Of a stretch of DNA of 64,000 bases, positions 4,794-33,458 are shown one piece after another (positions within the stretch are counted from its first letter, which is position 1; every line of letters begins with the position of its first letter). Location of the stretch: NCBI RefSeq assembly GCF_001748225.1, contig NZ_BDFE01000009.1:62001-126000 (forward strand), in the 5' to 3' direction. A model generated the notes under the pieces. The model was not told the DNA's origin. It saw nothing but the letters and a program-made list of their open reading frames with translations, and searched no databases. The translations under genes and the position numbers were made by a program. The stretch is from Desulfoplanes formicivorans. Its GTDB lineage: Bacteria; Desulfobacterota; Desulfovibrionia; Desulfovibrionales; Desulfomicrobiaceae.

Positions 4794-4934
4794 ATGGCAC
4801 TGACAGACCAAGAAATAGAGGTCCTTGGCCGGTTCCTGGAGTTATACGGAGAGGCGTGGATCGAATATGCATTCATGGCCGGTATGACTGTTAAAGATGC
4901 AGAGGAAACGCTGAAGAAGTTGCAGGATAGGTAA
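4794..4934 (+). CDS. 46-residue phage microprotein
   Basis: Starts at the ATG immediately following the Gam stop (TAAATG), so it is translationally coupled, and encodes 46 residues. The sequence is helical and amphipathic (LGRFLELYGEAWIEYAFMAG; ...AEETLKKLQDR). No family is recognised; position and coupling are the only support. Confidence 0.55.
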   Translation: MALTDQEIEVLGRFLELYGEAWIEYAFMAGMTVKDAEETLKKLQDR

Positions 4935-4941
4935 TGCGAAA

Positions 4942-4980
4942 CCCTGCACCCACTTTGTCTGGTGCAAAGTGGGTGCAGGG
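4942..4980 (+). terminator. Perfect 16-bp stem-loop in the early operon
   Basis: Arms 4942-4957 (CCCTGCACCCACTTTG) and 4965-4980 are perfectly complementary around a 7-nt loop. No T-run follows, so this is not a classical intrinsic terminator. It may be a processing site, an attenuator or an mRNA-stabilising element in the longest gene-free stretch of the early region (4935-5040). Confidence 0.6.
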
Positions 4981-5040
4981 TCATCCGGGGGCGGCGCCCC
5001 GGGTCTGACGAGCAGCCTACGGAAAAGGAGGATAAATGCT

Positions 5041-19856: not shown

Positions 19857-22800
19857 CAAAGGGTCTGTCAAGGTCAAGTCCATGGGTAAGGCCCTGGACT
19901 CAATGGGCCAGGACGCGACCAGGGCGGGGTCATCTGCCAGCAAGTCCATGGCTAGCCTGAATAGCCAAATCGGCAGGACGACCAAAGGCGCCGAGCTGAT
20001 GGCCAAGGCCATGAAAGGGGCAATGGCCTATTTTTCGGTCAGGGCGCTGGCTGCGTTTGAAACATCCATTGCCAGCGTGGGCATGAGCTTTGAGCACACC
20101 ATGAAGACCGTGCAGGGTGTGAGCCGGGCTACAGATGAGCAGTACAAAGCACTGACTGCTGCGGCCCGAGAAATGGGCGAAACAACGGAGTGGTCTGCCA
20201 CACAGGCAGCCGAGGCGTTGAAGTACATGTCCATGGCCGGGTTCACCGTTGAACAGTCCATCGCTGCCCTGCCCGGCGTGTTGGACCTGGCTACAGCCGG
20301 GAACCTTGACCTGGGCCGTGCATCGGACATCGTGACCGACAGCCTTACAGCCATGGGCCTTGGGGTTGAGGATCTCGCGCACTTCAGCGACGTGCTTATT
20401 GCGACAACGACCAGGTCAAATACGAACATCGAGATGATGGGGGAATCGCTTAAGTACGCTGCCCCTATTGCTCATAGCATGGGCTATGAGATTGAGCAGG
20501 TATCTGCCCTGCTTGGCACGCTGGCAAACGCGGGTATTAAAGCGTCGGACGCCGGTACGGATCTGCGGCAGGCCATGCTGCGCAACAGCAAGGCTGCTGC
20601 AGAGCTCGGAACAAGAAGCGACGATCTGATCGGCACAATCAAGGCCGCAAGAGATGCAAACTGGGATGCCACCAAGGTTCAGGAAGAGTGGGGTATTATC
20701 GCATCAAAATCTGTCCTGGTTTTGATGGAGCAGATTGATCAGTACGAAAAACTGTACGGACAGCTGCAAAATGTAGATGGAGCAACATCTGCTCTTGCCG
20801 GGTCCATGCGTGACGACACGCTCGGCGCGTGGAAGGAATTCAAGTCTGTTGTTGAGTCCGTAAGGTTGGACATTTTTGAGAGACAGTCGAACGGAGTAAA
20901 GACAGCACTTAGGTTTTTATCTGGAGAGATCAGGGAGAATAAAGATTCTATTGTGTCATTTGGTGAAGCCATTGTTGACACCATGGAAGCATCCACATGG
21001 GCTGTGGAGACACTGGCGCTTTCAGTTAATGGACTTGGAGGAGCGTTTGACGCATTTAAGCTCGGTATTGCAGAGGCAGAAGAATTCTTGCTCGATCTAT
21101 ACACATCTATACCAACATGGATGCTGCCGGAAAGCATGGAGCTCTCTGCGGTAACAATTGACGCGCTGCGCGAAACCATCAGGCAGACAAAAGAAGAAGC
21201 AACAAAGGACATAATCGACACAAGCACTACAATTGAAGGCCTCCACGGAAAGTTCGAGAGCCTGAGGGACGCCCTGCGCGATACAGGAGACACAGGCAAG
21301 CAAAGCATGGCCAACATAGAAAAGGCCGCCAAGTCAACCGCAAAGAGTGTAGATTCAGCAATAAAGAGTGTCGCCAAGGCGGATAGCTCGTACATAAAAA
21401 GCTCTAACGATATATACAAAAAAGGCCTCCAGCGCCGTGGAGATCTGTTGACAAAATGGGAGAAGTCCCAGCTCGATTCCCAGGAGGACCTGGTCAAAGA
21501 ATTTGAGGAGCTCACCGGCGACCAGTACGAATTCGAGAGGCAGGCTATCCGCGAAAAAGCCAGGCTCTACGATGATGCCGGGGCGGACAAGGTTAAGGTC
21601 GCGGAGTGGGCCAGAAAGGAAATCGAAAAAGTAAACAAGCGGGAGGTTGATGACGCTGAGGATGCGTTCCGGCTCAAAGCGTTGGCTGGAGACGATTTTT
21701 TTGATGGTCTGAAGGCTGGATATGACGACAACCTCGGGTACGCAAGGACATGGGGAGAAACAGGGTACGACATTGTCAGCGATTTTTTCCGATCGTCCCG
21801 TGGCGCCGCGTCTGATCTTCTGTTTGACGCGATCAAGGGAGACATGGATTCACTCGGTAGCTACTGGGAGTCTTTCTGGGACTCCATGCTGAGAAGCATG
21901 ACTGACTATGTAACCCAGATGGCAACAGAGTGGGCAACATCGAATCTCATCTCCTGGGGTGCATCATTTGCCGATTCTCTTCTGACATTCCATACCGGGA
22001 CTACAGGCATCAAGCAGGATGAATTGCTGGCCATCCTACAGCAGGGGGAAATGGTCATCCCGGCAAAACAGGCTGAAACGATAAGGCAGGCGATTGATAA
22101 CGGCGGCATGTCTGCGGATGGATATTTTGATGCGGTGTCAAATGCCGTCAGCATCGGAACCAGGGCGTCTGGCTATGTTGCGGGGTCGTGGGACAGTCCG
22201 GATATTGCCGGCCATGCCATTGGGGCCCTGCAATCGTCTGTTCTGGGTGGTGTCGCAGCAGGCATCAATAATTTCTCCGCAGTATCTAACATGGGCAAGG
22301 CATTGCAAAATGCCGGATATGACATTTCTTCCTCAGCGATCAAGGATGCGGCGTTTGATCAGGCGGTGTCGGGATTCGTCTCGGCTGCAATTCCTGGGTT
22401 TGCTGGAACGTTTATGGGTAATCTAACATCTGATGTTCTAGGCGTATCCGATTATGCAACCGCCGGAAAGATCGTTGGATACGGTTTGTCTGTTCTGTCT
22501 GGTGTTAACATCCCTGGAGCAATGATTGCCGCGTTGTCACCTGTAACCGCGCTGGCCATATCGAGCATTGCTGATGCCATGGACCTGCGATCAGACGAAA
22601 CGCTCAAGGATGCGCTTGAGGATAAATATGGCCATATTACAGGGCGCAGGGCGTATGCTGCTGCACAGGACAAACTCTCCGAGATAGGAGCAAAGATATC
22701 CGAATACGGATCTCTAGCTGCGTACGGGTTTGACCCAGAGAATGCGACCTCCATTGTCGGATACCAGCCGTTCGGTGTCGGCGAAGTGTCGCTCAACTTG

Positions 22801-23436
22801 GAAACAGGACGGATATCAGACTCTCTCGGACGCGTTGCTGTTGGGCCGTACGGTTCTTTTGTTGATGTCGGATCTCTCGCCGAAGCTGCAGGGCTTGTCG
22901 GCGGAGGCCTTGGAGATGCACTTGGGGATATCTCAGGGTCTCTTGATTCTCTTGGAAGTCTTGGAATTGACACGGATTCGCTGTCAAAAGCGTGGGCAGA
23001 TGCAGCCCTTGAAGCCGCAAAGGAGGCTGGATGGGGGAGCGGGTCTGGTAGCGGAGGGTACGGACCGTCAGGAGGCCTTGGAAGCTCTGGCGGCTTTGGC
23101 CCGTCAGACGCTGCCGGTGGCGGCCCGTCGAGCGGTGGCAGCACGTCGAGCACAGGCGGAAACTCAGGATATGGCCGGTACGCTGGTGGCCCAGTCTCCC
23201 CGGGATATATGTACGAGATCAACGAGCGCGGCCAGGAATTGTTCATGCCCGGGGTTGATGGCCGGATCATGACTGCCGACGAGACCAAGGCCATGCTGAC
23301 CACGCTGAAGCAGATAGCGGCTGGCGGTGGATCAGATATGGCGGCAGCTCTGTATGCCATTGCAAAGTATTGCCAAAAATCAATGAAGATCCTTGATAGG
23401 TGGGATCACATCGGGATGCCGGAGGTGCGTGCATGA
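19816..23436 (+). CDS. Tail tape measure protein
   Basis: Determines tail length and helps DNA entry. 1206 residues. The TP901-type core is clear at residues 95-260 (EMGETTEWSATQAAEALKYM, LDLATAGNLDLGRASDIVTD, LLGTLANAGIKASDAGTDLR). Long helical regions (490-620) follow, then a C-terminal half rich in Gly/Ser, with a low-complexity stretch at about 1075-1130 and a terminal GGPVSPGYMYEINERGQELF motif common at ends of tape measures. Its stop overlaps the next start by ATGA. Confidence 0.95.
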   Translation: MNSNTVKITLQVDDKGSVKVKSMGKALDSMGQDATRAGSSASKSMASLNSQIGRTTKGAELMAKAMKGAMAYFSVRALAAFETSIASVGMSFEHTMKTVQGVSRATDEQYKALTAAAREMGETTEWSATQAAEALKYMSMAGFTVEQSIAALPGVLDLATAGNLDLGRASDIVTDSLTAMGLGVEDLAHFSDVLIATTTRSNTNIEMMGESLKYAAPIAHSMGYEIEQVSALLGTLANAGIKASDAGTDLRQAMLRNSKAAAELGTRSDDLIGTIKAARDANWDATKVQEEWGIIASKSVLVLMEQIDQYEKLYGQLQNVDGATSALAGSMRDDTLGAWKEFKSVVESVRLDIFERQSNGVKTALRFLSGEIRENKDSIVSFGEAIVDTMEASTWAVETLALSVNGLGGAFDAFKLGIAEAEEFLLDLYTSIPTWMLPESMELSAVTIDALRETIRQTKEEATKDIIDTSTTIEGLHGKFESLRDALRDTGDTGKQSMANIEKAAKSTAKSVDSAIKSVAKADSSYIKSSNDIYKKGLQRRGDLLTKWEKSQLDSQEDLVKEFEELTGDQYEFERQAIREKARLYDDAGADKVKVAEWARKEIEKVNKREVDDAEDAFRLKALAGDDFFDGLKAGYDDNLGYARTWGETGYDIVSDFFRSSRGAASDLLFDAIKGDMDSLGSYWESFWDSMLRSMTDYVTQMATEWATSNLISWGASFADSLLTFHTGTTGIKQDELLAILQQGEMVIPAKQAETIRQAIDNGGMSADGYFDAVSNAVSIGTRASGYVAGSWDSPDIAGHAIGALQSSVLGGVAAGINNFSAVSNMGKALQNAGYDISSSAIKDAAFDQAVSGFVSAAIPGFAGTFMGNLTSDVLGVSDYATAGKIVGYGLSVLSGVNIPGAMIAALSPVTALAISSIADAMDLRSDETLKDALEDKYGHITGRRAYAAAQDKLSEIGAKISEYGSLAAYGFDPENATSIVGYQPFGVGEVSLNLETGRISDSLGRVAVGPYGSFVDVGSLAEAAGLVGGGLGDALGDISGSLDSLGSLGIDTDSLSKAWADAALEAAKEAGWGSGSGSGGYGPSGGLGSSGGFGPSDAAGGGPSSGGSTSSTGGNSGYGRYAGGPVSPGYMYEINERGQELFMPGVDGRIMTADETKAMLTTLKQIAAGGGSDMAAALYAIAKYCQKSMKILDRWDHIGMPEVRA

Positions 23437-24584
23437 GGGTCATCGAGCCGATAGATATCGAATTGATAGACAGCAATGTCACGCAGTCAGGGCTTTCTGA
23501 ATGGGATGCCGAAACAATATATGCAGCCGGGCAGCGCGTTGTTGTATCCTACGAAGAGGACGGAGAGACGCCGAGGGTGGCTGAAGAATACACATCACTA
23601 AGGTCTGACAATGTCGGATTTTATCCTCCGGACAGCAGCGGTGACGGCCAGGACGGGGTCAAGATATCTGTCGGCGACTCTGAAGATGTGTCATCCTTTA
23701 CCATCGGCGAGACGGTCGGGACATCCCTGGCATCTGGTACATGCTCGTTCATCGACGGGACAACAGGCGGGTATATGATTTTGTCAGGCGTGTCCGGAGA
23801 TTTCGATTCAGGGGACACGATCTCCGGGAATGACTCCGGGGCGTCGGCAACCATATCAAGCGTATCGTCTACGACCATTGCCGCAGCATGGGAGCGTGTG
23901 GGCGCAACGAATCGCTGGAAGATGTTTGACGCCTATGTCAATTCGCAGACCGTGGCGGACGACATAGACGTGACCATAGGGTTTGGTAGGTGCGACACGC
24001 TTGTCTTGCTTGATGTCCAGGCAACTGACGTGGAGATTGAGGTTGTCAACGACTCGACCGGAGAGGTTGTGTTTTCCGAGGCGTTCGACATGCGTCTGGA
24101 TCAATCCGCATCATGGGCAGATTATTTCTTTGCCCCGGCAGAGTATAAGACGTCGCTTATCGTATCGACACCGCTCTACTACAACGCTTCCGCCCGTATC
24201 CGGATAACCAACGGAGATGACGAGGCAATGTGCGGCCATGTTGTTGCCGGCCGCGCTCAATACATTGCCGCATCGCAATGGTCGCCGACTGCGGGCATCA
24301 CCGATTACTCGTCAGCCGAGACGGACACCGACGGCGTGACATCGCTTGAGCAAGGGCCCTGGTCAAAAGAACTGTCAGTTGACCTGCTCGTGCCAACAGC
24401 ATCTGTAAGCAATCTGCAGCGGAGGCTTGCGTCGTATCGCGGCAAGCCGTGCGTGTGGGATTGCAACAACGACTCCACGGACCATGATGCCCTGATTGTG
24501 TACGGCTATTTTTCGGACTTTTCCATTGTTATTGCCGGGCCAACGACATCCAGCTGCTCGCTGACAATACAGGGCCTAATATAA
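23433..24584 (+). CDS. Distal tail protein
   Basis: A 383-residue beta-rich protein directly after the tape measure (ATGA). An N-terminal part (residues 1-150) contains tandem beta segments rich in Gly, Ser, Asp; the C-terminal part (about 160-383) has WKMFDAYVNSQTVADDIDV and LVLLDVQATDVEIEV, like distal/tip proteins of Mu-like siphoviruses. The precise role (tail tip or hub) is inferred from order. Confidence 0.7.
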   Translation: MRVIEPIDIELIDSNVTQSGLSEWDAETIYAAGQRVVVSYEEDGETPRVAEEYTSLRSDNVGFYPPDSSGDGQDGVKISVGDSEDVSSFTIGETVGTSLASGTCSFIDGTTGGYMILSGVSGDFDSGDTISGNDSGASATISSVSSTTIAAAWERVGATNRWKMFDAYVNSQTVADDIDVTIGFGRCDTLVLLDVQATDVEIEVVNDSTGEVVFSEAFDMRLDQSASWADYFFAPAEYKTSLIVSTPLYYNASARIRITNGDDEAMCGHVVAGRAQYIAASQWSPTAGITDYSSAETDTDGVTSLEQGPWSKELSVDLLVPTASVSNLQRRLASYRGKPCVWDCNNDSTDHDALIVYGYFSDFSIVIAGPTTSSCSLTIQGLI

Positions 24585-24593
24585 GGAGGACCC

Positions 24594-25418
24594 ATGACTC
24601 TATCAAAAATATCCAGCTTGCCGGTAGCGCCTACGCGGCAGGACATGGACAGTTTTGACCAGCGCGCCGACGCTTTTTTGACCGCACTGGTCACCATGCA
24701 GGAAGAGCTTGACGCGTGGGTGGACGAGTTCAATGCCGAGGGGTCAACCTACAACGACAAGTTCACAAACCGCGATTCGCGCCTGGGATCTCTCGAAGAA
24801 GAGATTTCTACTGCCAGGGGCGGGTCAGACGATCTCGCGGACAGACTCGATGCAATGTCCGATCGCATATCCAATCTTATCGTCATGCAGCAGGAGATCT
24901 CGCTTGGCAATATACGTGTCAGCCGTTCAAGACGTCCTACACCGGATGATGATGGATACCTTGTTGGGACGTATTGGGTCTATCCAGGTGAAGACGATTT
25001 CTGGATGTGCGTTAGAGCCGAGGTGTCACAGTACGCCAGGTGGCGGAGATCCAATGGCGATCTTGTGCGCAGGCTCGATGCACCGAGCGTGTCCGGGGAT
25101 GCGTCCATTGATACGTTTGGCGAGCTGACGCTGTCGCTCAACGGGATAGATGGCGAGGCGACAGAGATCCGGTGGTACGCGACCGGAAGCCCGACCGTGG
25201 TGTCCGGCGCGATGGCCGGAACGCTGAACAACACAATCACGCTGTCGTGGGATACTGCCGGGGCCTACGAGGTGCGGGCAAAGGTTATTGGTGACGGTGA
25301 TCTGCTGTATGACAGCCTGTACAGCGATGCGCTTCATGTTGTGTGTGGGCCGTCGATTTACTGCGGATGTGGAATCTATTGCGGAGACGGAAGCTATCCA
25401 GGAATGATGCTTGAATAA
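24594..25418 (+). CDS. Tail tip/fibre-associated protein
   Basis: A 274-residue protein, strong ribosome site AAGGAGGACCC. A helical N-terminal half (residues 15-110, coiled coil) is followed by a DDDGYLVGTYWVYPGEDDFW segment, then an Ig-like beta domain (about 150-250), and a Cys-rich end (CGPSIYCGCGIYCGDGS). It probably takes part in the tail tip or fibre attachment. Confidence 0.6.
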   Translation: MTLSKISSLPVAPTRQDMDSFDQRADAFLTALVTMQEELDAWVDEFNAEGSTYNDKFTNRDSRLGSLEEEISTARGGSDDLADRLDAMSDRISNLIVMQQEISLGNIRVSRSRRPTPDDDGYLVGTYWVYPGEDDFWMCVRAEVSQYARWRRSNGDLVRRLDAPSVSGDASIDTFGELTLSLNGIDGEATEIRWYATGSPTVVSGAMAGTLNNTITLSWDTAGAYEVRAKVIGDGDLLYDSLYSDALHVVCGPSIYCGCGIYCGDGSYPGMMLE

Positions 25419-25428
25419 CGGAGGTAGT

Positions 25429-25764
25429 ATGAGAGGCATACCGAAACGATTTGGGACTGCTCGTGATGTGGAAATATGCGTATCCATGGCAGAGGAAGGA
25501 GATCTGCCCAAAAACGGCGTGATCAAAAAATTGCAGGCAATGTTGGCCACCGGCAAGGTGTACCAGAGGGACAAGGTTTTAGAGTCGATCGATGATGCAG
25601 ATGGCCCCGAGCCTGAATACAGGGTCATGGAAACAGAAGGACAGGACGGCAATACAGAGATCGTGCAATACAGGCTCGAAGACAACCCTGCATCTGCGTA
25701 CGCCAGAATCGGTTTGGACGCAGAAACGATCAGGCAATACATTGACCGACTGGGAGGAGAATAA
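25429..25764 (+). CDS. Small protein before the variable tail protein
   Basis: A 111-residue protein; ATG 25429 follows CGGAGGTAGT. It overlaps the variable-protein start by 1 nt (TAATG). It is acidic and helical with no membrane segment; it does not have the four-helix, basic character of the DGR accessory protein Avd and lies upstream, not downstream, of the variable gene. It may be a tail fibre assembly factor; function unknown. Confidence 0.6.
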   Translation: MRGIPKRFGTARDVEICVSMAEEGDLPKNGVIKKLQAMLATGKVYQRDKVLESIDDADGPEPEYRVMETEGQDGNTEIVQYRLEDNPASAYARIGLDAETIRQYIDRLGGE

Positions 25765-26786
25765 TGAGAAGACAATGGCGAAACGAGGATAGCGCCGAGA
25801 CGAAAATTCTGGCGGAGACCCTTTCCCTGGCCCAGACCCTGCGAGGCATGCAGGGCGTGCCCATTCTCACGGTAAACGATGACGGGGACGGTGTTGTCAT
25901 CAACGCCGAAACCGTGGTCCCCATGATATCTGGCGACGCCCATACCAGCTTTGTGCTGGAAGAAGGCCTTGAGATTAAAGATCTTGACATCGGATCGCTG
26001 ACTCTCGGACAGAACTATGGCGTGTATGTGTGCGACGACGGATCAAAATACGGCGAGGCCGTCATATCTGCAAACACAACAGCCCCGGACGGGTATACGG
26101 CGACAAATTCAATCAAGATCGGAGGGTTCCACTACGGTCGTGTCAGGACGTATGACCAGAGGTTCGACAAAACAGCTACGCTGGACGTACAGGTTGTCCC
26201 AAACTCTGTATGGGATCTGATATGTCGCCCGGCATGCCTTGACCCGGCAGGAATGGCCAAGGTCGGCGGCGTTTGGGTCGATATCTATCTCAATTCTGAA
26301 GACGGGACTCAGTGGCCGGAAACCATCCCGCAGTCTGTGTATGGAGCCGTTCCGCTCACAGGGACAGAAGGATATTCCTATTTTGACTATGCCCAACTTG
26401 CTGCAAATGCCGGCAAGCGTCTTCCGACATACCAGGAGTTCCTTGCGTACGCATACGGGGTGCCAGCAGGAAACACCGGGGCGTCAGGCCGGGTGAACAC
26501 GGGCAGTCAGGACTGGATGGTCAGCTGCGCGAACATCGACCAGCCGAGCGGGAATGTATACCAGTTGACCGGGAATCTTGGTTTCGGCGGAGGATCATCG
26601 TGGGCGTCACACGACGAGGGAGTTGACAGCGCATACGACCATGGCGATTTATACGGAAGTGTGTACCAGCTCAGAGTCGGCGGCGACTGGGGCGACCCTG
26701 CCGGGGCCCGCTGCGCGCTCGCGTACAGCACGGTGTGGAACGTGGACGGGAACGTGGGCCTGCGCTGCGTCAGCGATCCACTGTAA
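25764..26786 (+). CDS. Diversity-generating retroelement variable protein (C-type lectin fold tail protein)
   Basis: A 340-residue tail protein, probably the receptor-binding tip. The N-terminal 150 residues are a fibre/attachment domain; residues about 155-340 are an FGE-sulfatase/C-type-lectin domain (GKRLPTYQEFLAYAYGVPAG, NVYQLTGNLGFGGGSSWASH). The end is the classic variable-region frame of DGR targets: YQLRVGGDWGDPAGARCALAY ... NVDGNVGLRCVS, where the family has GG.W..GARC...Y....N....GFR. The codons of the last 40 residues are unusually GC-rich with few A, as expected if adenine positions have been mutagenised. A truncated DGR reverse transcriptase follows at once. Confidence 0.88.
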   Translation: MRRQWRNEDSAETKILAETLSLAQTLRGMQGVPILTVNDDGDGVVINAETVVPMISGDAHTSFVLEEGLEIKDLDIGSLTLGQNYGVYVCDDGSKYGEAVISANTTAPDGYTATNSIKIGGFHYGRVRTYDQRFDKTATLDVQVVPNSVWDLICRPACLDPAGMAKVGGVWVDIYLNSEDGTQWPETIPQSVYGAVPLTGTEGYSYFDYAQLAANAGKRLPTYQEFLAYAYGVPAGNTGASGRVNTGSQDWMVSCANIDQPSGNVYQLTGNLGFGGGSSWASHDEGVDSAYDHGDLYGSVYQLRVGGDWGDPAGARCALAYSTVWNVDGNVGLRCVSDPL

Positions 26787-27323
26787 ACTGTAATCTGGAC
26801 ACCTGTTGGTGCACTGACGTCGCAAGTTATCGCCAATGTTTATCTGGACAGGCTTGACCACTTTGTAAAGGACGCCCTCGGCGTCAAGCGATATGTCAGA
26901 TATATGGACGATACCGTGATTGTTTCCAACGACAAGGCGGGGTTGAGGCAAACGCTTGAGCGCATCAAAGAGTATCTCGCTGCAGACCTGTCCCTGCGCC
27001 TCAACCCAAAAACAAGGATATACCCAGCATCACAAGGTGTTGATTTTTGCGGATACCGCATCTGGAAAACCCACATCCTTCCCAGGAAGCGGACCGTCAA
27101 GAAGACAAGGCGCAGGATGAAGGGTTTCGTGCATAGATATGCAAACGGGACGATATCTGCGGAGACGATCAGGCAAAGCCTGTCGAGCTGGCTCGGATAC
27201 ATGAAGCACTGCAATGGATACAGAACGACAATAGGAGAGCTCAAGCGCATTAGCCAGGAGTGCAGGCGATGCGGTGTCAATTTTGGCGAACTGTTTTGGT
27301 GGTTGCGAGATAAAACCGGATGA
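26787..27323 (+). pseudogene. DGR-type reverse transcriptase, 5' half deleted
   Basis: Reading from just after the variable-protein stop, 178 residues are clearly the C-terminal half of a DGR (Brt-type) reverse transcriptase: TPVGALTSQVIANVYLDRLD (26799-26858), then the catalytic YMDD box at 26901-26912, and a basic thumb/C-terminal region (FCGYRIWKTHILPRKRTVKK). The finger and first half of the palm, with the first catalytic Asp, plus the template repeat and any avd gene, are absent. It has no start codon near the 5' end except an ATG inside YMDD. The fragment is therefore a remnant, and the retroelement should be inactive on its own. Confidence 0.9.
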
Positions 27324-27340
27324 CTGTGGTGGATGATTTT

Positions 27341-27421
27341 CACACAAAACGAGATTTTGAGAGGCCGCAAATTTTTCTCGTTTTATGTGCAAATTTTTCT
27401 CGTTTTACGTGACCCCTTACA
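27341..27421. mobile_element. Right end of the prophage with MuA-type binding repeats
   Basis: Two contiguous 22-bp repeats, 27367-27388 and 27389-27410, differ by one base; each contains TTTTTCTCGTTTTAYGT (Mu end-site consensus in complement has RYRCGAAAA). A third, inverted related copy lies at about 27341-27361. In Mu the R1 and R2 sites are likewise adjacent 22-bp units near the end. The element would end with ACCCCTTACA at 27421. The flanking 5-bp duplication cannot be tested because the left end is outside. Confidence 0.8.
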
Positions 27422-27652
27422 TCTGTTTTGCACGGATCGTCTGTCAGTCTGATCCTTTCTTGGACTTGCTGTTCATGACTTGCCAGGAATGTTCGCATTA
27501 TCCGCAAAAGCCTTTAGAAATCTGGAGGCTGCTCATGAATGGGCTGCCTCATTCGTGGCCAGGATAATGCGATGCATCTTTATTGTGTGTGGGCTTTGGT
27601 TGGTGGCTCTGAAGGGTCGTCACCAGGGAGTGGCGGGTAGCTATCGGGTGGA
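27422..27652. other. Host sequence between prophage end and repeat copy 1
   Basis: No convincing gene. Short frames on both strands look like chance or debris; the minus strand shows interrupted peptide-like stretches (ATNEAAHS, KAFADNANIPGKS) that may be relics of an older gene. Confidence 0.4.
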
Positions 27653-27825
27653 ACGGCATCTCCCCTATCTGGCTTTCCGGAAAATCGGCTCGAGCGTTGG
27701 TCTGGAAAGATCTGAAACAGGTCTGTTGTGGGCGAGGGGAACTCTACCCCAAATCCACAAACAATCACCTGAAAAGAACGTTGCATGGGCGTCAAGAAAA
27801 GCGACAACTTCTTTGACACTTACCG
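27653..27825 (-). repeat. Dispersed repeat, copy 1
   Basis: Reading the minus strand, this segment aligns over about 150 nt with 37015-37170 on the plus strand. Shared blocks include TTTTC.GGTG.TTGTTT.TGG, ACAACAGA and CCAGATAGGGG. In one frame both encode V.VK.VV....DAT.FSG.CLW. The two copies are in inverted orientation 9.4 kb apart. Confidence 0.75.
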
Positions 27826-27832
27826 TCGCCAT
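27665..27832 (-). CDS. Putative last-cassette ORF inside the dispersed repeat
   Basis: A 55-residue frame whose ATG (27832) lies inside the attC core (GTTATGGC) and which covers repeat copy 1. The peptide MATVSVKEVVAFLDAHATFF... is similar to a frame in the second repeat copy. It may be a small cassette gene or only a frame through a non-coding repeat; no function is known. Confidence 0.35.
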   Translation of the reverse strand: MATVSVKEVVAFLDAHATFFSGDCLWIWGRVPLAHNRPVSDLSRPTLEPIFRKAR

Positions 27833-27990
27833 AACGGCCCGCGGATGAGCGAGCGGTGGCCGCGGGGGCAAGTTTGCTTGAACAAGCGGATGGTATGTGC
27901 GGGCCGTTATTGCCGGCGCGAAGCGTCCGACAACAACGCCTCAAGAACCGGCGGCGTTTACGCCATCCGAGTTGCTTGACTTGTTAGGCT
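27828..27990 (-). repeat. attC-like recombination site A
   Basis: On the minus strand the site runs from GCCTAAC (27983-27989) to GTTATGGC (27828-27835), 163 nt, with internal inverted repeats (GGCGTAAACGCC; CGGACGCTTCGCGCCGG). It follows the small membrane-protein cassette, whose reading frame ends inside it, as is typical of integron cassettes. Confidence 0.75.
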
Positions 27991-28459
27991 CTAGTTGTTC
28001 CAGCTTTTCATCGATTTCTCTTATTCTATCGGCAGGCGGAATGCTTTTATCTACTTCCTGGACTACAGCAAGCCCCTTGAACATGTGATAAAGGCAACCA
28101 ACAAACCCCACCACCCCTAAAACTGGAATTATTGAACCAAAACTTAACCCTAGTGCGAGCCAAATGAGCCCCTTAAAGAGTGAGCGTAAACTTTTATATA
28201 TAATCCCTGTCGCGATATAGTTTGCAACTTGCACATTATTCTCATGATGGGCTTTGAGGCCAACGTATTTATCCCGTAGGTCTCTTAAATAGTTTATTTC
28301 GTTTTCTGTAGACCGTTGAGAAATAACTTTTCCGGATAAAGCCGAAATCCTCTGACCAATCACAAGCACCAGCCAAAACAATCCTGAACCCAAAGCGCCT
28401 TGAATTATCAATGGCCATTCCAGTATTGTGTTTATAAGTTCAGTCACTTGATACTCCAT
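27941..28459 (-). CDS. Integron-cassette membrane protein, unknown
   Basis: A 172-residue protein starting at ATG 28459, only 6 nt after the attC core GTTAGGT, the usual cassette geometry. Predicted membrane segments are at about 18-35 (IIQGALGSGLFWLVLVIG) and a pair at about 94-125 (LFKGLIWLALGLSFGSII, LGVVGFVGCLYHMF), with a charged helical section in between (RSTENEINYLRDLRDKYVGL). The C-terminus reads into the attC site. No family recognised. It lies next to a membrane-anchored nuclease-like cassette, so a shared defence-type role is possible but unproven. Confidence 0.75.
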   Translation of the reverse strand: MEYQVTELINTILEWPLIIQGALGSGLFWLVLVIGQRISALSGKVISQRSTENEINYLRDLRDKYVGLKAHHENNVQVANYIATGIIYKSLRSLFKGLIWLALGLSFGSIIPVLGVVGFVGCLYHMFKGLAVVQEVDKSIPPADRIREIDEKLEQLEPNKSSNSDGVNAAGS

Positions 28460-28465
28460 TTTGTA

Positions 28466-28538
28466 ACCTAACGGCCCGCTTTGCGGCAATTTTGGAGCGC
28501 AGCGGAAAAGTTGTCCGACAGCACGTCTTGTTAGGGGC
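28466..28538 (-). repeat. attC recombination site B (short, canonical)
   Basis: 73 nt with the standard design on the minus strand: CCCTAAC core overlapping the stop codon of the preceding gene (28530-28538), a folded-strand stem with GTCGGACAACTTTT and TTGCCGCAAAGCGGGC segments, and the GTTAGGT core (28466-28472). Recombination is expected between G and TT of the last core. Confidence 0.88.
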
Positions 28539-29397
28539 GGTATTGATACTCATTCTTTAAATCATCCAGCGTGACAACATGAAGTTTTACGTTCACATTG
28601 TATCTATCAAGATAACGCGATAAACGTTCTTTTACTCTACTTGCATTTACCTCTGGGTTGTCTACGACTGCCATAAAGTGAATTACTAATTCTTTTGAGT
28701 CTATGCATTTTAGTTGGCTCGCAATTAACTCAGATTCAAGTAAAACCCTATCTAGTCTCAAAGGGTTTACATGCTTATTTCTGAACAACTTGACCTCTAC
28801 TGCGTGAATTTTGTTTTTGTCTATTGCCAGACCGTCAAATATTACTTTGCGTCTGCTAGGGGTTTCAAATCGTACGTCAGTTTTAAATTCGAGCCCCATG
28901 TCTTTAGACAGTTTCATGATCGAAAGCTTTTCTGCTAAGGAGACATTAGCCATCAAAGATGCGTGACGCTCTGAATTTAATACAGAACTTGCTGAATGTT
29001 TGGACGAAGCAGACTTGCTTGAAGTTTCTTGAGGTTCAGTGTCGTCACCAGATGTCCCGGGTGCATTCTCGTCAGTTGAGGATGAATCTTCGGCTTCCTC
29101 AACCTCTTCTCTGAGCTTTTTTTCTTTCTCTTCAGTTGTAGCCTTACCAAATGACTTTAGAAAATTATCTTCATTTTTGTAGTCAGATGGGGCGTATAAA
29201 ACTTTATGGTTAAAATTTAATGTTAAGAAGAATATGCCGACTAGAAAAACAGGGAACAGCATTAGAAACCAAATATAGATACCTTGATTTTCAGACTCTA
29301 TAAAGGGCAATACTGTTGTGCCACTGATTTCTGCAATTGCAGCAAATATTGCAATTACCGTCAGAGGGTTTTTAATGTGTCCAATTTTCTCTACCAA
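28531..29397 (-). CDS. Membrane-anchored PD-(D/E)XK nuclease-like cassette protein
   Basis: A 288-residue protein. Two membrane segments at about 11-33 and 40-60 (NPLTVIAIFAAIAEISGTTV; IYIWFLMLFPVFLVGIFFL) put the rest in the cytosol. A Ser/Glu/Asp-rich linker (85-140) leads to a C-terminal nuclease-like domain (about 150-260) with VIFDGLAIDKNKIHAVEVKL, the D-x(n)-ExK signature of PD-(D/E)XK endonucleases and NERD-like domains. The stop codon lies within the attC core. It starts 24 nt after an attC core (GTTAGGGGC). Membrane-linked nucleases occur as effectors in phage defence; this role here is inference. Confidence 0.8.
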   Translation of the reverse strand: MVEKIGHIKNPLTVIAIFAAIAEISGTTVLPFIESENQGIYIWFLMLFPVFLVGIFFLTLNFNHKVLYAPSDYKNEDNFLKSFGKATTEEKEKKLREEVEEAEDSSSTDENAPGTSGDDTEPQETSSKSASSKHSASSVLNSERHASLMANVSLAEKLSIMKLSKDMGLEFKTDVRFETPSRRKVIFDGLAIDKNKIHAVEVKLFRNKHVNPLRLDRVLLESELIASQLKCIDSKELVIHFMAVVDNPEVNASRVKERLSRYLDRYNVNVKLHVVTLDDLKNEYQYRP

Positions 29398-29416
29398 CTC
29401 GTTTTCCTTTAGGATT

Positions 29417-29579
29417 GGCCCCTAACGGCCCGCGGTTGAATGGTGGCCGCAGGGACAAGTTTACTTGGACCTGTGGATATCCGCTCGATTCGCTTGTTGT
29501 GAGGCTCTTTGCGCCGAGCAACAACGCTAAGCTCACCTGCCGAAGTGCAACGAGGTCAGGTGAAGCAATTTGTTAGCTA
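29417..29579 (-). repeat. attC-like recombination site C
   Basis: About 163 nt between AGCTAAC (29572-29578) and GTTAGGGGC (29417-29426) on the minus strand. It holds two stem units: CACCTGACCTCG/GGCAGGTG near the gene side and the shared long module CCAAGTAAACTTG...GCGGCCACC...CCGCGGGCCGTTA also found in sites A and D. Confidence 0.78.
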
Positions 29580-29581
29580 GA

Positions 29582-29824
29582 TTATTTTATTAATTCTTTT
29601 GCTTTTGAGGCCAATCCAACCCATTTTGCACATGAATCAAATATACTTTCACTTTCCTCTTTTGTTAAAAGAGTCTGTAGAGCAAACAACATTGTTGATA
29701 CAAAAATTAATAAATCACCTGGAGTTGAATTATTATTGACTTCTAATAGAATAGATACTGGTTCGTTTTTTGAACATTTTTTAATGTAGAATAGAAATCC
29801 CGGTCCTCTGGACCGGGTCAGAGT
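29582..29824 (-). pseudogene. Short start-less cassette ORF
   Basis: An open frame of 80 codons without an ATG near its 5' end (the first in-frame Met comes after about 48 codons). The peptide has a convincing protein-like run, SILLEVNNNSTPGDLLIF and LLTKEESESIFDSCAKWVGL, ending just before the attC core. It may start at CTG 29821, be a 5'-truncated gene, or be frameshifted. A perfect 8-bp hairpin (CCCGGTCC, 29799-29817) lies at its beginning. Confidence 0.5.
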
Positions 29825-29857
29825 TTAATCTAAAACTTCCATCCTGCCATCCATGTC

Positions 29858-30084
29858 ATCTAACGGCCCGCGGATGAGCGGTGGCCGCGGGGCAAGTTTA
29901 CTTGGATCTGCGGACATCCGCTCGATCCGCTTGTTGTAAGGCTCTTTGCGTCGAGCAACAAGCGGATGGTATCCGTGGGCCGTTGTTGCCGGCGCGAAGC
30001 GTCCGGCAACAACGCCCACATCACAGGAGGCAAAAGCTGAGCGAAGCGGTGCTTTTGACTTCCTGTGCATGTGTTTGTTAGCTC
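29858..30084 (-). repeat. attC-like site D, apparently two sites fused
   Basis: On the minus strand from GAGCTAAC (30077-30084, containing the stop of the ATPase gene) to GTTAGAT (29858-29864), 227 nt, much longer than usual. It reads as a 75-nt attC (stem CACAGGA/TCCTGTG around CGCTTCGC) directly joined to a second long unit identical in type to sites A and C. The most likely origin is loss of the gene between two sites. Confidence 0.75.
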
Positions 30085-31352
30085 GTTTCCTTAAAGATTG
30101 ATGGCCGTGCATTCAAGTAAGCAACAAACAGAGAATCTTTAAATCGATAGTAACGCTCTCTTATTTTAACAATTTCTGCACCGTAATCGTCTGTTACCAG
30201 ATGTCCCACAAATTGACTTGGATTATCGACACCGTTGTCAATAGCTTTTTTATATGCTTCTGCTGTATGTATCTCTAGCTCGCCAGCCTGTACTTCAGCT
30301 AGAGCCTTCAATACAACTTCCCTTTGCCTTGAGGATGCAACTGCTTTTTTATATCGTCCCTCTAAAACAGGGTCTGTTCCTGATTCCGCGATTTCTGCGA
30401 GAGTATGCTCTATATCGGTTGCAGAAATGTATGTATCTCCATTTCTATAGGCCATTCTCAATGCGTACTTTCCAATGAGGTGGACCATATAAGGGTGACC
30501 CTGAGCTAGGTTGATTACTTTATTAGTAGCATTGTCATCAAATCTAATAAAGTCATTAATGCTCGCTTCTGCTCCCCGAATAATTTCTTTCAGCTCATCG
30601 TTATCCATTGCAGGCAAATGAATAATTCCACCAGCAAAAAGCCTGTCCGATGATGCATGTTCTTTCATTAATTCTTGAATATCGTGAGCCACACCAACGA
30701 TACAAAATTTAACGCCTGGTACATTTGTTGCCAGTGCTTTTAAAAAAGATGCAAACCCAGTCTTGTTTTGTATCTGATCGAATTCATCGATAACAAAAAG
30801 CAGTCCATTCTTGGCCATTTTTTGTTCAATTATGGCGCTAACGACGTTTGTAAAAACAGTCTCTACATCGTGATCTGGTTGGGACGTTTTTACTGCTGTT
30901 TCAGTAGCCTTTTCCCCGCCTAAAGATGTAATCCCTATATTGAATTTGGGCTGATACTTTTCTAGAGATTTTCTAGCCTTGGGAATATCGTAAGACCAAT
31001 CTGATAAGCAATCTTTATTGGTAAGTAGCTTTTCCAATAGTTCTTGGTGCGTAGAAATACTTTTTCCACACGCAAAGTATATTGGCAAGAAATCCAGCTT
31101 TTCATCAACATCGAGGCCAACTTTAGCTAGCAGCTCATTGTTACCAGTCGATATGTTTATGACCTGTCGTGAAAGCGACGACTTTCCGATTCCTCGATTC
31201 CCTATAATCGCGATATTTGTTCCTTCAGAAATCAAAGCGTAGTAGCAATCTTCAACTGGCCTTGTTCTACCTGCAAATCTATCGGCATCGGTTATTTCTT
31301 TTGCAGGAAAGAACGCGTTCTCAACTTGTGTAATTGTTGGTTTGCTTGCCAT
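30078..31352 (-). CDS. Orc1/Cdc6-like AAA+ ATPase, first integron cassette
   Basis: A 424-residue protein; ATG 31352 chosen because CAAGG stands 7 nt upstream (in-frame ATGs also at 31373 and 31406). Residues about 25-60 contain FAGRTRPVEDCYYALISEGT followed by Walker A IGNRGIGKSS; Walker B is LLFVIDEFDQ (about 190-199) and a sensor region follows (KFCIVGVAHDIQEL). A lid domain and a C-terminal winged-helix-like part (about 330-424) give the Orc/Cdc6 or STAND-type plan. Such stand-alone ATPases are frequent in integrons and defence islands; function is not known. The stop codon overlaps the attC core. Confidence 0.82.
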   Translation of the reverse strand: MASKPTITQVENAFFPAKEITDADRFAGRTRPVEDCYYALISEGTNIAIIGNRGIGKSSLSRQVINISTGNNELLAKVGLDVDEKLDFLPIYFACGKSISTHQELLEKLLTNKDCLSDWSYDIPKARKSLEKYQPKFNIGITSLGGEKATETAVKTSQPDHDVETVFTNVVSAIIEQKMAKNGLLFVIDEFDQIQNKTGFASFLKALATNVPGVKFCIVGVAHDIQELMKEHASSDRLFAGGIIHLPAMDNDELKEIIRGAEASINDFIRFDDNATNKVINLAQGHPYMVHLIGKYALRMAYRNGDTYISATDIEHTLAEIAESGTDPVLEGRYKKAVASSRQREVVLKALAEVQAGELEIHTAEAYKKAIDNGVDNPSQFVGHLVTDDYGAEIVKIRERYYRFKDSLFVAYLNARPSIFKETS

Positions 31353-31397
31353 GTTTTTGCCTTGATAGTTCATTTTATTGAATTTACACTCTCGTAG

Positions 31398-31442
31398 AGC
31401 TAACAAGTTATTATGTGGTTTCCTGCTAACTCCAGGAAACCC
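31398..31442 (-). other. Probable attI region of the integron
   Basis: Between the first cassette and the integrase gene. On the minus strand a GTTAGCTC core (31398-31405) marks the cassette boundary, and a hairpin GGTTTCCTG / CAGGAAACC (31418-31442) carries a second GTTAG in its loop. Position, two cores and divergence from intI fit attI. A TTGACA at 31450-31455 could be the -35 of the integrase promoter. Confidence 0.6.
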
Positions 31443-31540
31443 TGCCCGTTGACAAAAATTTAAGATTGGATGTTAGTAGTTCCTAATCTGATAACTTTGA
31501 ATTTGGCATGTTATCGAGATCTTTTTAGCGATCAAAGGCT

Positions 31541-32024
31541 ATGATTAACATCCCAAACGATTTTCGAGACAATTTTGAGAAATGCCTGGCTCAAGAGTCC
31601 ATCCCAGAGGGGGTGAGGCATTTCTACCGTAATGGCTGAGGTATTATTTTGATTTTTGTCATAAGTATCAGCATGACCTATCAGACCGGACAACCTTAAC
31701 GCTCTTTATAGGAAAGCTTGCTGCGAAACATCAATTGATCTGGTAGCCAAGCTGCTATATGGTTGCGAGCTCGGGCTCTTCGAATGCCAGAAACTGCGGG
31801 TGCAGGATATCAACTTTGACGCTATGGTCCTCACTGTCCATAACGGCAAGGGCAAGAAGGACCGCGCGCCCCCTCTGCCTGAGACAATCCTTCCTGATCT
31901 CAATGATCAACTCCGAACCGTGGTCCACCTATACCCATACCTTCAAGAGCACGACCCAAAAAGAGAAAGAGTCCTCTGGATTTTTGATTCCGGAGCGGTC
32001 TTCGGTTGCAGGAACGATCAGTGA
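31541..32024 (+). pseudogene. intI: Integron integrase (IntI-type tyrosine recombinase), degenerate
   Basis: The frame starts at ATG 31541 (INIPNDFRDNFEKCLAQESI) and runs to a stop at 31637; one base lost near 31630 restores the frame to give WLRYYFDFCHKYQHDLSDRT, an IntI-type N-terminal SAM-like domain. After about 60 residues the sequence jumps near 31735 to the catalytic domain: DLVAKLLYGCEL, LRVQDINFDAMVLTVHNGKGKKDRA and LPETILPDLNDQL. About 100 residues in between and the C-terminal catalytic His, Arg, His and Tyr are missing, and the first catalytic Arg in LLYGCGLR is Gly here. It diverges from the cassette array, as in all integrons. It cannot be active. Confidence 0.87.
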
Positions 32025-32483
32025 GCCCCCGGCTTATGGTAATAGTCGTATCCTTCTGTGCGATTGGTCATGTATGGACTGATCATGGAATGTGCTGCCT
32101 GGAAGATATCCCGCCTGGTTTTCTGATGCTTTTTAGCTGTATAACAAACAATATTTGGTCAGGCATTATCTTGCACTGAATTGGCCTATATCGTCACCAT
32201 TATGTATGACACAAGGGGCCGTCTCGATTTTTTTTGATTTTTTTGAAGGTTCTTCGACGTGTTGTGTGGAATTCATGTAGCAATCAGGGTCTGCATCAGA
32301 GCCGCAACTCAGGGTCCGGGCTCATGTGCCGTGCTCGGGGCATGAGCACTCGGGGGAGGGGCACAGCACTTTGTGCTTCAACGGATTATTGTCAGAGCCA
32401 GAAAATGGCAGGGAGGAACAGAAGGCAGGGAAAACCCCCTTTCTCCTGTTCCTCCTCCCATGGCAGGACATACGATACACATA
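32025..32483. other. Gene-free region between intI remnant and usp
   Basis: No convincing gene. It contains T-runs at 32229-32250 and, near its right end, a hairpin (GGAGGAACAG at 32412-32421 with CTGTTCCTCC at 32446-32455) placed downstream of the leftward usp gene, which may be its terminator. Confidence 0.5.
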
Positions 32484-33458
32484 TCATCTGGTAAGTTTGA
32501 CCGGGGGGGTGAACCCGGGAGGCTTGATGGCCAGGACCGAACATGTGAGCTGGTCAAGAATGGCCTCTGCGGTATTGCCCATGATCAGTCCCGATATGCC
32601 GGTACGTGCGGCCGTTCCCATGACGACCAGATCCGCTCTCAACCCTTTTGCCAGAGGAGGAATCACCTTTTTTGGCGCTCCCTCAGGCAGATGAAAGACT
32701 GGTGCGAGGTAGTCGTATGCCTCACTGCCGACCCACTCCCGAAGTTGTCCGGCCAGCCGGTCGAGTTCCTGTCTATGGCGATCATGCTCCCTTTCAATGT
32801 AATGGCCCAGTCCTTCCGACGACGTGCTTCCCCGGGACAGGATGGTCTTTCCACCAAGGGCTTCCCAGGCATGGACAATGTGCAGGGAGGCGAAGTTTGC
32901 CAGAGCCAGAGAGGCGGCCAGTTCCAGAATTTCGCGGTTAAGATCGTTTTCTGCAGAACCGGAAGCTGCCGGAGGGAAATCCACGGCCGCCAGGATGCAG
33001 TTGTTGTTCTGTTTTGCCGTCGGTTTGATGAGCCAGACCGGACAAGGGCATTTGCGCAGAAGGTGCAGGTCGTCGCTGCCGAAAAGCCTGCGCGTCCAGC
33101 CCGGATTCTCTGCAGGTTTGATCAGCAGATCATGCCCGGTCTGCACAACAGCCTGAATCGCTTCAAGATATGGTTTGCCAACCAGAACTTTCAGACGAAC
33201 GTGCAGACGTTCACTAAAGGGCCGGATCATGGCTTCCAGTTTTTTGCGACGATGGGACTCCACTGGAGTCGACAGACTTTCGGCCATGGGTCCTCCTGCT
33301 GGCAGGTCCATGCCGGCCATCATCCCCTGGGGGGGGATGACATCCATAACAGTCATATCGGCCAGATTATTTTCCGCCAATGAGACAGCCTGGGCCAGAG
33401 CCGAAGCCTGGTTCACCGTTGTTTCGGTTACGTAGAGAATGTTTTTAAATCGTTTCAT
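32484..33458 (-). CDS. Tandem universal stress protein
   Basis: A 324-residue protein made of two UspA domains (about 1-145 and 150-310). The second ends with the ATP-binding pattern VVMGTAARTGISGLIMGNTA (G-2x-G-9x-G-S/T), so it should bind ATP. The ATG at 33458 is preferred (GAGGG upstream). It is the second gene of an operon with the CPA2 antiporter (22-nt gap), a pairing known from stress- or pH-response loci where Usp regulates the transporter. Confidence 0.92.
   Translation of the reverse strand: MKRFKNILYVTETTVNQASALAQAVSLAENNLADMTVMDVIPPQGMMAGMDLPAGGPMAESLSTPVESHRRKKLEAMIRPFSERLHVRLKVLVGKPYLEAIQAVVQTGHDLLIKPAENPGWTRRLFGSDDLHLLRKCPCPVWLIKPTAKQNNNCILAAVDFPPAASGSAENDLNREILELAASLALANFASLHIVHAWEALGGKTILSRGSTSSEGLGHYIEREHDRHRQELDRLAGQLREWVGSEAYDYLAPVFHLPEGAPKKVIPPLAKGLRADLVVMGTAARTGISGLIMGNTAEAILDQLTCSVLAIKPPGFTPPVKLTR

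Follow-up and report, generated by a model that had tools for sequence, protein, structure and literature searches.

A Mtd-type target gene and half a reverse transcriptase mark a diversity-generating retroelement probably disabled by one deletion in a Mu-like prophage of Desulfoplanes formicivorans

A diversity-generating retroelement (DGR) in a Mu-like prophage of Desulfoplanes formicivorans was, in all likelihood, disabled by one deletion of approximately 1.2 kb, with its target gene left intact. The window analyzed here, a stretch of 64,000 nucleotides (contig NZ_BDFE01000009.1, positions 62,001 to 126,000), contains an uninterrupted gene for a tail protein followed directly by the 3′ half of a DGR-type reverse transcriptase (RT) gene. 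The genome is known from a 3.0-Mb draft assembly of 26 contigs, estimated to be 100% complete.

Prophage and target gene

As the sequence-only reading had it, the locus lies at the tail of a Mu-like prophage. The prophage is 29.7 kb long, starts 2266 bases before the window, and extends on the forward strand to window position 27421. It is recognized as Mu-like by a MuA-type transposase (phrog_310, E = 7e-93), TG...CA ends, and a 5-bp target-site duplication, TCTGT, located at 27422–27426 and just before the left end. Two 22-bp repeats that resemble transposase-binding sites occupy its right end (27367–27410, +), and the prophage also has genes for terminase, portal, head, and tape measure. 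Among the prophage genes examined, damage was seen only in the DGR, and the prophage otherwise looks whole; no second copy of it was found in the genome.

The prophage also contains a Type II hammerhead ribozyme at 4934–5021 (+) of the window (Rfam RF02276, 57.2 bits), and hammerheads in prophages are already known (PMC3088659). Beside the prophage, in 27832–32024, repeats of TAACGGCCCGC...GTTAGGC separate minus-strand ORFs and resemble the attC sites found in arrays of chromosomal integron cassettes, although folding of one attC-like candidate, at 28455–28545, was not supported beyond that of shuffled sequences. This cassette-like array includes an nSTAND-type NTPase gene (30078–31406, −; PF20703, E = 6.6e-12), possibly a defence gene, and a short tyrosine-recombinase-like piece lies at 31800–32024 (PF00589, E = 0.0027, below the cut-off).

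The target ORF (25764–26786, +) encodes 340 amino acids, has no internal stop, and ends with TAA. Its product matched the second domain of Mtd (PF21916, E = 4.8e-26) in a Pfam profile search, the tail protein family phrog_11262 (E = 1.9e-57) in a PHROG profile search, and the structures of BPP-1 Mtd (1yu0–1yu4 and 2iou, E = 1e-23 to 1e-24). Residues 76–339 correspond to Mtd residues 100–377 (E = 1e-24), and the second domain and the C-type-lectin domain are both covered. The uninterrupted ORF and the Mtd homology bear out the earlier description of an intact C-type-lectin-type target. With its variable region (VR) in place, the gene probably still codes for a tail-tip protein, whose binding of a receptor is predicted from Mtd homology alone. 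Relatives of the protein are present in eight other genomes of the same order, and in other viral contigs the only close relative was the isolate's own record. Directly upstream, a 117-amino acid ORF (25411–25764, +) has relatives by tblastn in the same order as here in L003, L013, L015, L070, and L076, among which L003, L015, and L070 carry intact cassettes.

The reverse transcriptase remnant

Downstream of the target, and in frame with it after its TAA, a frame of 178 codons (26787–27323) is open, with RT homology starting at 26802, at the codon for P of P-V-G-A-L-T-S-Q. The part kept (26802–27323, +) is a pseudogene that includes the SQ box, YMDD, and the C-terminal region, in agreement with the sequence-only reading, which had recognized the second half of a DGR-type RT right behind the target from its GALTSQ and YMDD motifs and its 178 residues. 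It matched RVT_1 only at profile positions 119–205 in the Pfam search and the phage RT family phrog_1423 at positions 286–430 (E = 1.2e-56). The fingers and the first catalytic Asp are missing, and approximately 185 N-terminal residues are gone. An intact target with this RT half right behind it goes far past what chance would yield.

A tree built from 28 RT C-terminal segments, BPP-1 Brt and three group II intron-type RTs among them, places the remnant with the DGR RTs, apart from the group II intron-type RTs, with a support of 100/100; its motif is the DGR-type SQ and not QG. The remnant belongs to the DGR clade. The earlier reading was to fall if the fragment came from a group II intron or another RT lineage, unrelated to the target gene, and the NCBIfam group II maturase model does match it with 67 bits (cut-off 300). 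However, the tree split and the SQ motif rule out a group II intron origin, and the best matches of the remnant are RTs with pairs of template repeat (TR) and VR alongside, which leaves the foreign fragment a practically negligible chance.

The end branch of the remnant in this tree is 0.32, compared with a median of 0.46, and so gives no sign of long decay; without accelerated divergence, the remnant is probably young and its loss event recent. The same lack of acceleration and the open frame could be taken to mean that the C-terminal half was retained in a different role, such as nucleic-acid binding. This is extremely unlikely, as the truncated end has no start codon of its own (the first ATG, at 26904, lies within YMDD) and a recent deletion accounts equally well for the open frame.

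Intact relatives and the variable region

Scans of two collections with the RT remnant yielded 31 loci. Complete cassettes of variable gene, template, and RT, which the sequence-only reading had suggested looking for in related prophages, were found in L003, L012, L015, L018, and L070, with the gene order target–avd–TR–complete RT. Differences between VR and TR in these cassettes fall almost exclusively at A positions of the TR: 12 of 12 in L003, 8 of 8 in L015, 11 of 11 in L018, and 13 of 13 in L070. Relatives of the target gene are therefore linked to TRs with A-specific differences, and the contrary case, that no relative is ever linked to a TR, was the second finding that would have told against the DGR origin.

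By alignment to the TRs of L015 and L018, the VR of the window has the approximate limits 26670–26780 (+). When compared with the L018 TR, 14 of its 26 A positions are changed vs. 13 of 87 other positions, an excess of the A-specific kind that had been predicted, although the own TR is gone and this history is read from TRs of relatives approximately 45% identical in the target protein. The A-biased pattern, seen here against a relative's TR, is what past mutagenic homing would be expected to leave. The earlier proposal that the phage once tuned its receptor-binding tip by mutagenic retrohoming thus gains from the A-biased VR and the A-specific relatives, and the past activity itself stays a plausible reading.

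Deletion scar and missing parts

Between the target stop and the GALTSQ codons, there are 16 nt in the window vs. about 1.2 kb in intact relatives (~1164–1180 nt in L003 and L012). The leader up to CCTGTT, CACTGTAAACTGTAATCTGGACACCTGTT, aligns with the target–avd spacer of relatives, such as CTGAAATCTGTCATCTGAGAATCTGTT in L012, while CCTGTTGGTGCACTGACG aligns with their RT gene, which CCTGTTGGTGCACTGAC also matches by alignment. The spacer-like and RT-like stretches overlap in CCTGTT (26802–26807, +), a junction present in both the RT gene and the post-VR leader and a putative microhomology. What is missing amounts to approximately 1.2 kb, including avd, TR, and the 5′ half of the RT gene. The simplest account of the scar would be a single deletion between short identical sequences, for which we infer the ancestral letters. 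An ancestral Mu-like prophage would have carried a standard DGR composed of the 117-amino acid gene, the Mtd-type target, avd, TR, and RT. One deletion of ~1.2 kb, probably between CCTGTT in the target–avd spacer and its copy at the P-V codons of the RT gene, would then have taken avd, the TR, and the N-terminal half of the RT with the first catalytic Asp. The target and its VR would have survived, with no self-diversification in a genome without RT and template.

Profile searches of the whole 3.0-Mb genome matched the RVT_1/RT family once, at this locus, and detected no second RT. No second VR copy or TR was found in the whole genome, and no A-biased repeat pair was present within window positions 20000–33000. 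An avd query from a relative had no match in the genome, a negative that is weak evidence by itself, and a local search with the same query recovers the L070 avd (E = 3e-34); the 16-nt gap between the target stop and the RT remnant holds no avd. The absence of the RT fingers, first catalytic Asp, avd, and TR, noted earlier from the window, was thus upheld across the genome, and the search there for an intact cassette or a related DGR returned no second RT, VR/TR copy, or avd. Relative to a functional DGR, the locus lacks a complete RT with all catalytic Asp, a TR near-identical to the VR, and avd (which is not universal) and has kept a DGR-clade RT, as a C-terminal half only, and a C-type-lectin target with A-specific VR changes.

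The region is represented by one assembly, and the IMG/VR record L011/L044, identical over the region, probably derives from the same isolate. It could be argued that the isolate has an intact DGR and that the contig joins two distant points, through an assembly artefact or a mixed population: the assembly is a draft of 26 contigs, VR/TR repeats are a known assembly hazard, and L017 resembles such a VR/TR collapse. Against this, the sequences joined are the target–avd spacer and a mid-gene part of the RT, neither of them a VR/TR repeat, and no orphan RT N-terminal half, avd, or TR was found on any other contig, which makes an artefact very unlikely. In L017 (5040–5480), where the RT is intact and avd was not found, the VR runs directly into what follows the TR in related loci; VR/TR recombination or assembly collapse is possible there.

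On the deletion account, the element is almost certainly unable to diversify the target protein by itself, as it lacks RT and template in the genome. With one RT, no TR, and no avd, no resident DGR acting in trans was found. Diversification in trans by the DGR of another phage, co-resident or superinfecting, is given a slender chance: the VR and the array that follows it are intact, the recipient side may still work, and remote targets are served by a distant DGR in Treponema denticola (PMC4891356), but the own genome is without a second RT and a second TR-like sequence. The target may be "frozen on one receptor version," as first proposed, though recombination with a superinfecting relative could still change it.

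A phased CTG array after the variable region

Behind the VR, CTG recurs at 26781, 26788, 26795, and 26803 with a pitch of 7, 7, and 8, forming a phased array (26781–26805, +) that adjoins the left edge of the scar, the deletion starting just after it. The same spacing was first noticed post hoc in relatives, and the array occurs in most of the avd-type targets, among them L003, L012, L015, L070, L087, and loci in the range L096–L175. The hypothesis was set down before 80 new loci were fetched for its test. By a criterion of at least three [ACT]TG at 7–8-nt steps within 48 nt around and after the VR end, the array was found in 54 of 71 non-redundant targets (5.9 in dinucleotide shuffles); it was found in 1/70 sequences upstream of the VR and in 0/71 after the TR, and the TG autocorrelation peaks at lags of 7, 14–15, and 21–22. 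Among the 49 prospective sequences, which are <65% identical to each other and to all earlier ones, 41 had at least three copies vs. 4.1 expected (maximum of 10 in 500 shuffles). There are three to five copies per target, and the copy number peaks at five.

The VR end of BPP-1, TGTGACCACCTGATTCTTG, is in the same phase, and its TR counterpart lacks the middle unit. This phased end lies in the 21-bp IMH element, which has five mismatches to the TR and determines the homing direction (PMC3240598). Given this overlap, the array is a candidate for a general recipient signal, and the chances are a little short of even that it is the general form of the 21-bp IMH segment that gives BPP-1 its TR-to-VR direction. 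The array follows the VR in most avd-type DGRs and was not seen behind TRs, and an RT clade without avd has a weaker form built on CG; the RT or an RT–Avd complex may read the array unit by unit to recognize the recipient. In the RT clade without detected avd (L176–L255 and L072), the TG array was present in 0/51; CG/AC showed a less marked phase of 7 there (sum of 100 vs. 70.6, sd 3.9), exemplified by AATCGGGAATCGTAAAGCGGGGATCGTAAATCG in L072. A site serving the Avd pentamer was considered and rejected: the five-copy peak fits, but a weaker phased array also exists where no avd was detected, and Avd alone is thus an unlikely reader. No hairpin beyond shuffled sequence was found after the VR in the window (z = 0.08); the GC-rich post-VR hairpin is absent here and in the nearest relatives, where the phased array is present instead. 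Among the papers searched, a limited set, none was found to describe such an array.

Comparison with known systems

The closest known system is the BPP-1 DGR (mtd-avd-TR-brt), which shares with this locus the Mtd-type target, the DGR-clade RT, and a VR at the C-terminus of a C-type-lectin domain, and the gene order of which is shared by the intact relatives. Unlike in BPP-1, avd, the TR, and the N-terminal half of the RT are deleted here, and this clade has the CTG array in place of the GC-rich hairpin. In Treponema denticola isolates, the core DGR is partly lost: RT and TR are gone, and target genes survive (PMC4891356). There too, the target gene outlives its diversifying machinery, but those loci are chromosomal with neither RT nor TR found, whereas half an RT is kept here at a readable scar in a Mu-like prophage. 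The RT is also damaged in the Pseudoalteromonas prophage proACA1-A (L095) as compared with phage ACA1, being unannotated and matched in two pieces; in contrast to the present case, the damage there is within the RT only and has left the target, avd, and TR/VR pair in place. Mu-like prophages of Desulfovibrio piger offer a similar setting, but their cassettes, with RT, an Avd-like protein, and an FGE-sulfatase/tail-fibre target, were described as complete (PMC12724379).

Other damaged DGR RTs were also encountered, with frameshifts in L134 and L160, and L129 pairs a full RT with another one that is shortened at the N-terminus. In G004, from the same bacterial family, an orphan Mtd-type gene (L071, 6064–7160) has a GC-rich hairpin with a GACA loop behind its VR; avd and TR were not found, the only RTs in the genome are of the group II type, and a further DGR loss in this family is probable.

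Significance

The remnant is a well-supported case of the already known decay of DGRs and, as such, of modest interest. Its readable scar illustrates how phages drop targeted hypermutation yet keep a tuned tail protein, and it offers a natural fixed-receptor lineage for comparison with diversifying relatives. The part that could matter is the phased array, a motif that most of the DGRs examined have behind the VR and lack behind the TR, for which a role in homing direction, as set by the IMH in BPP-1, would be testable by point changes in laboratory reporters.
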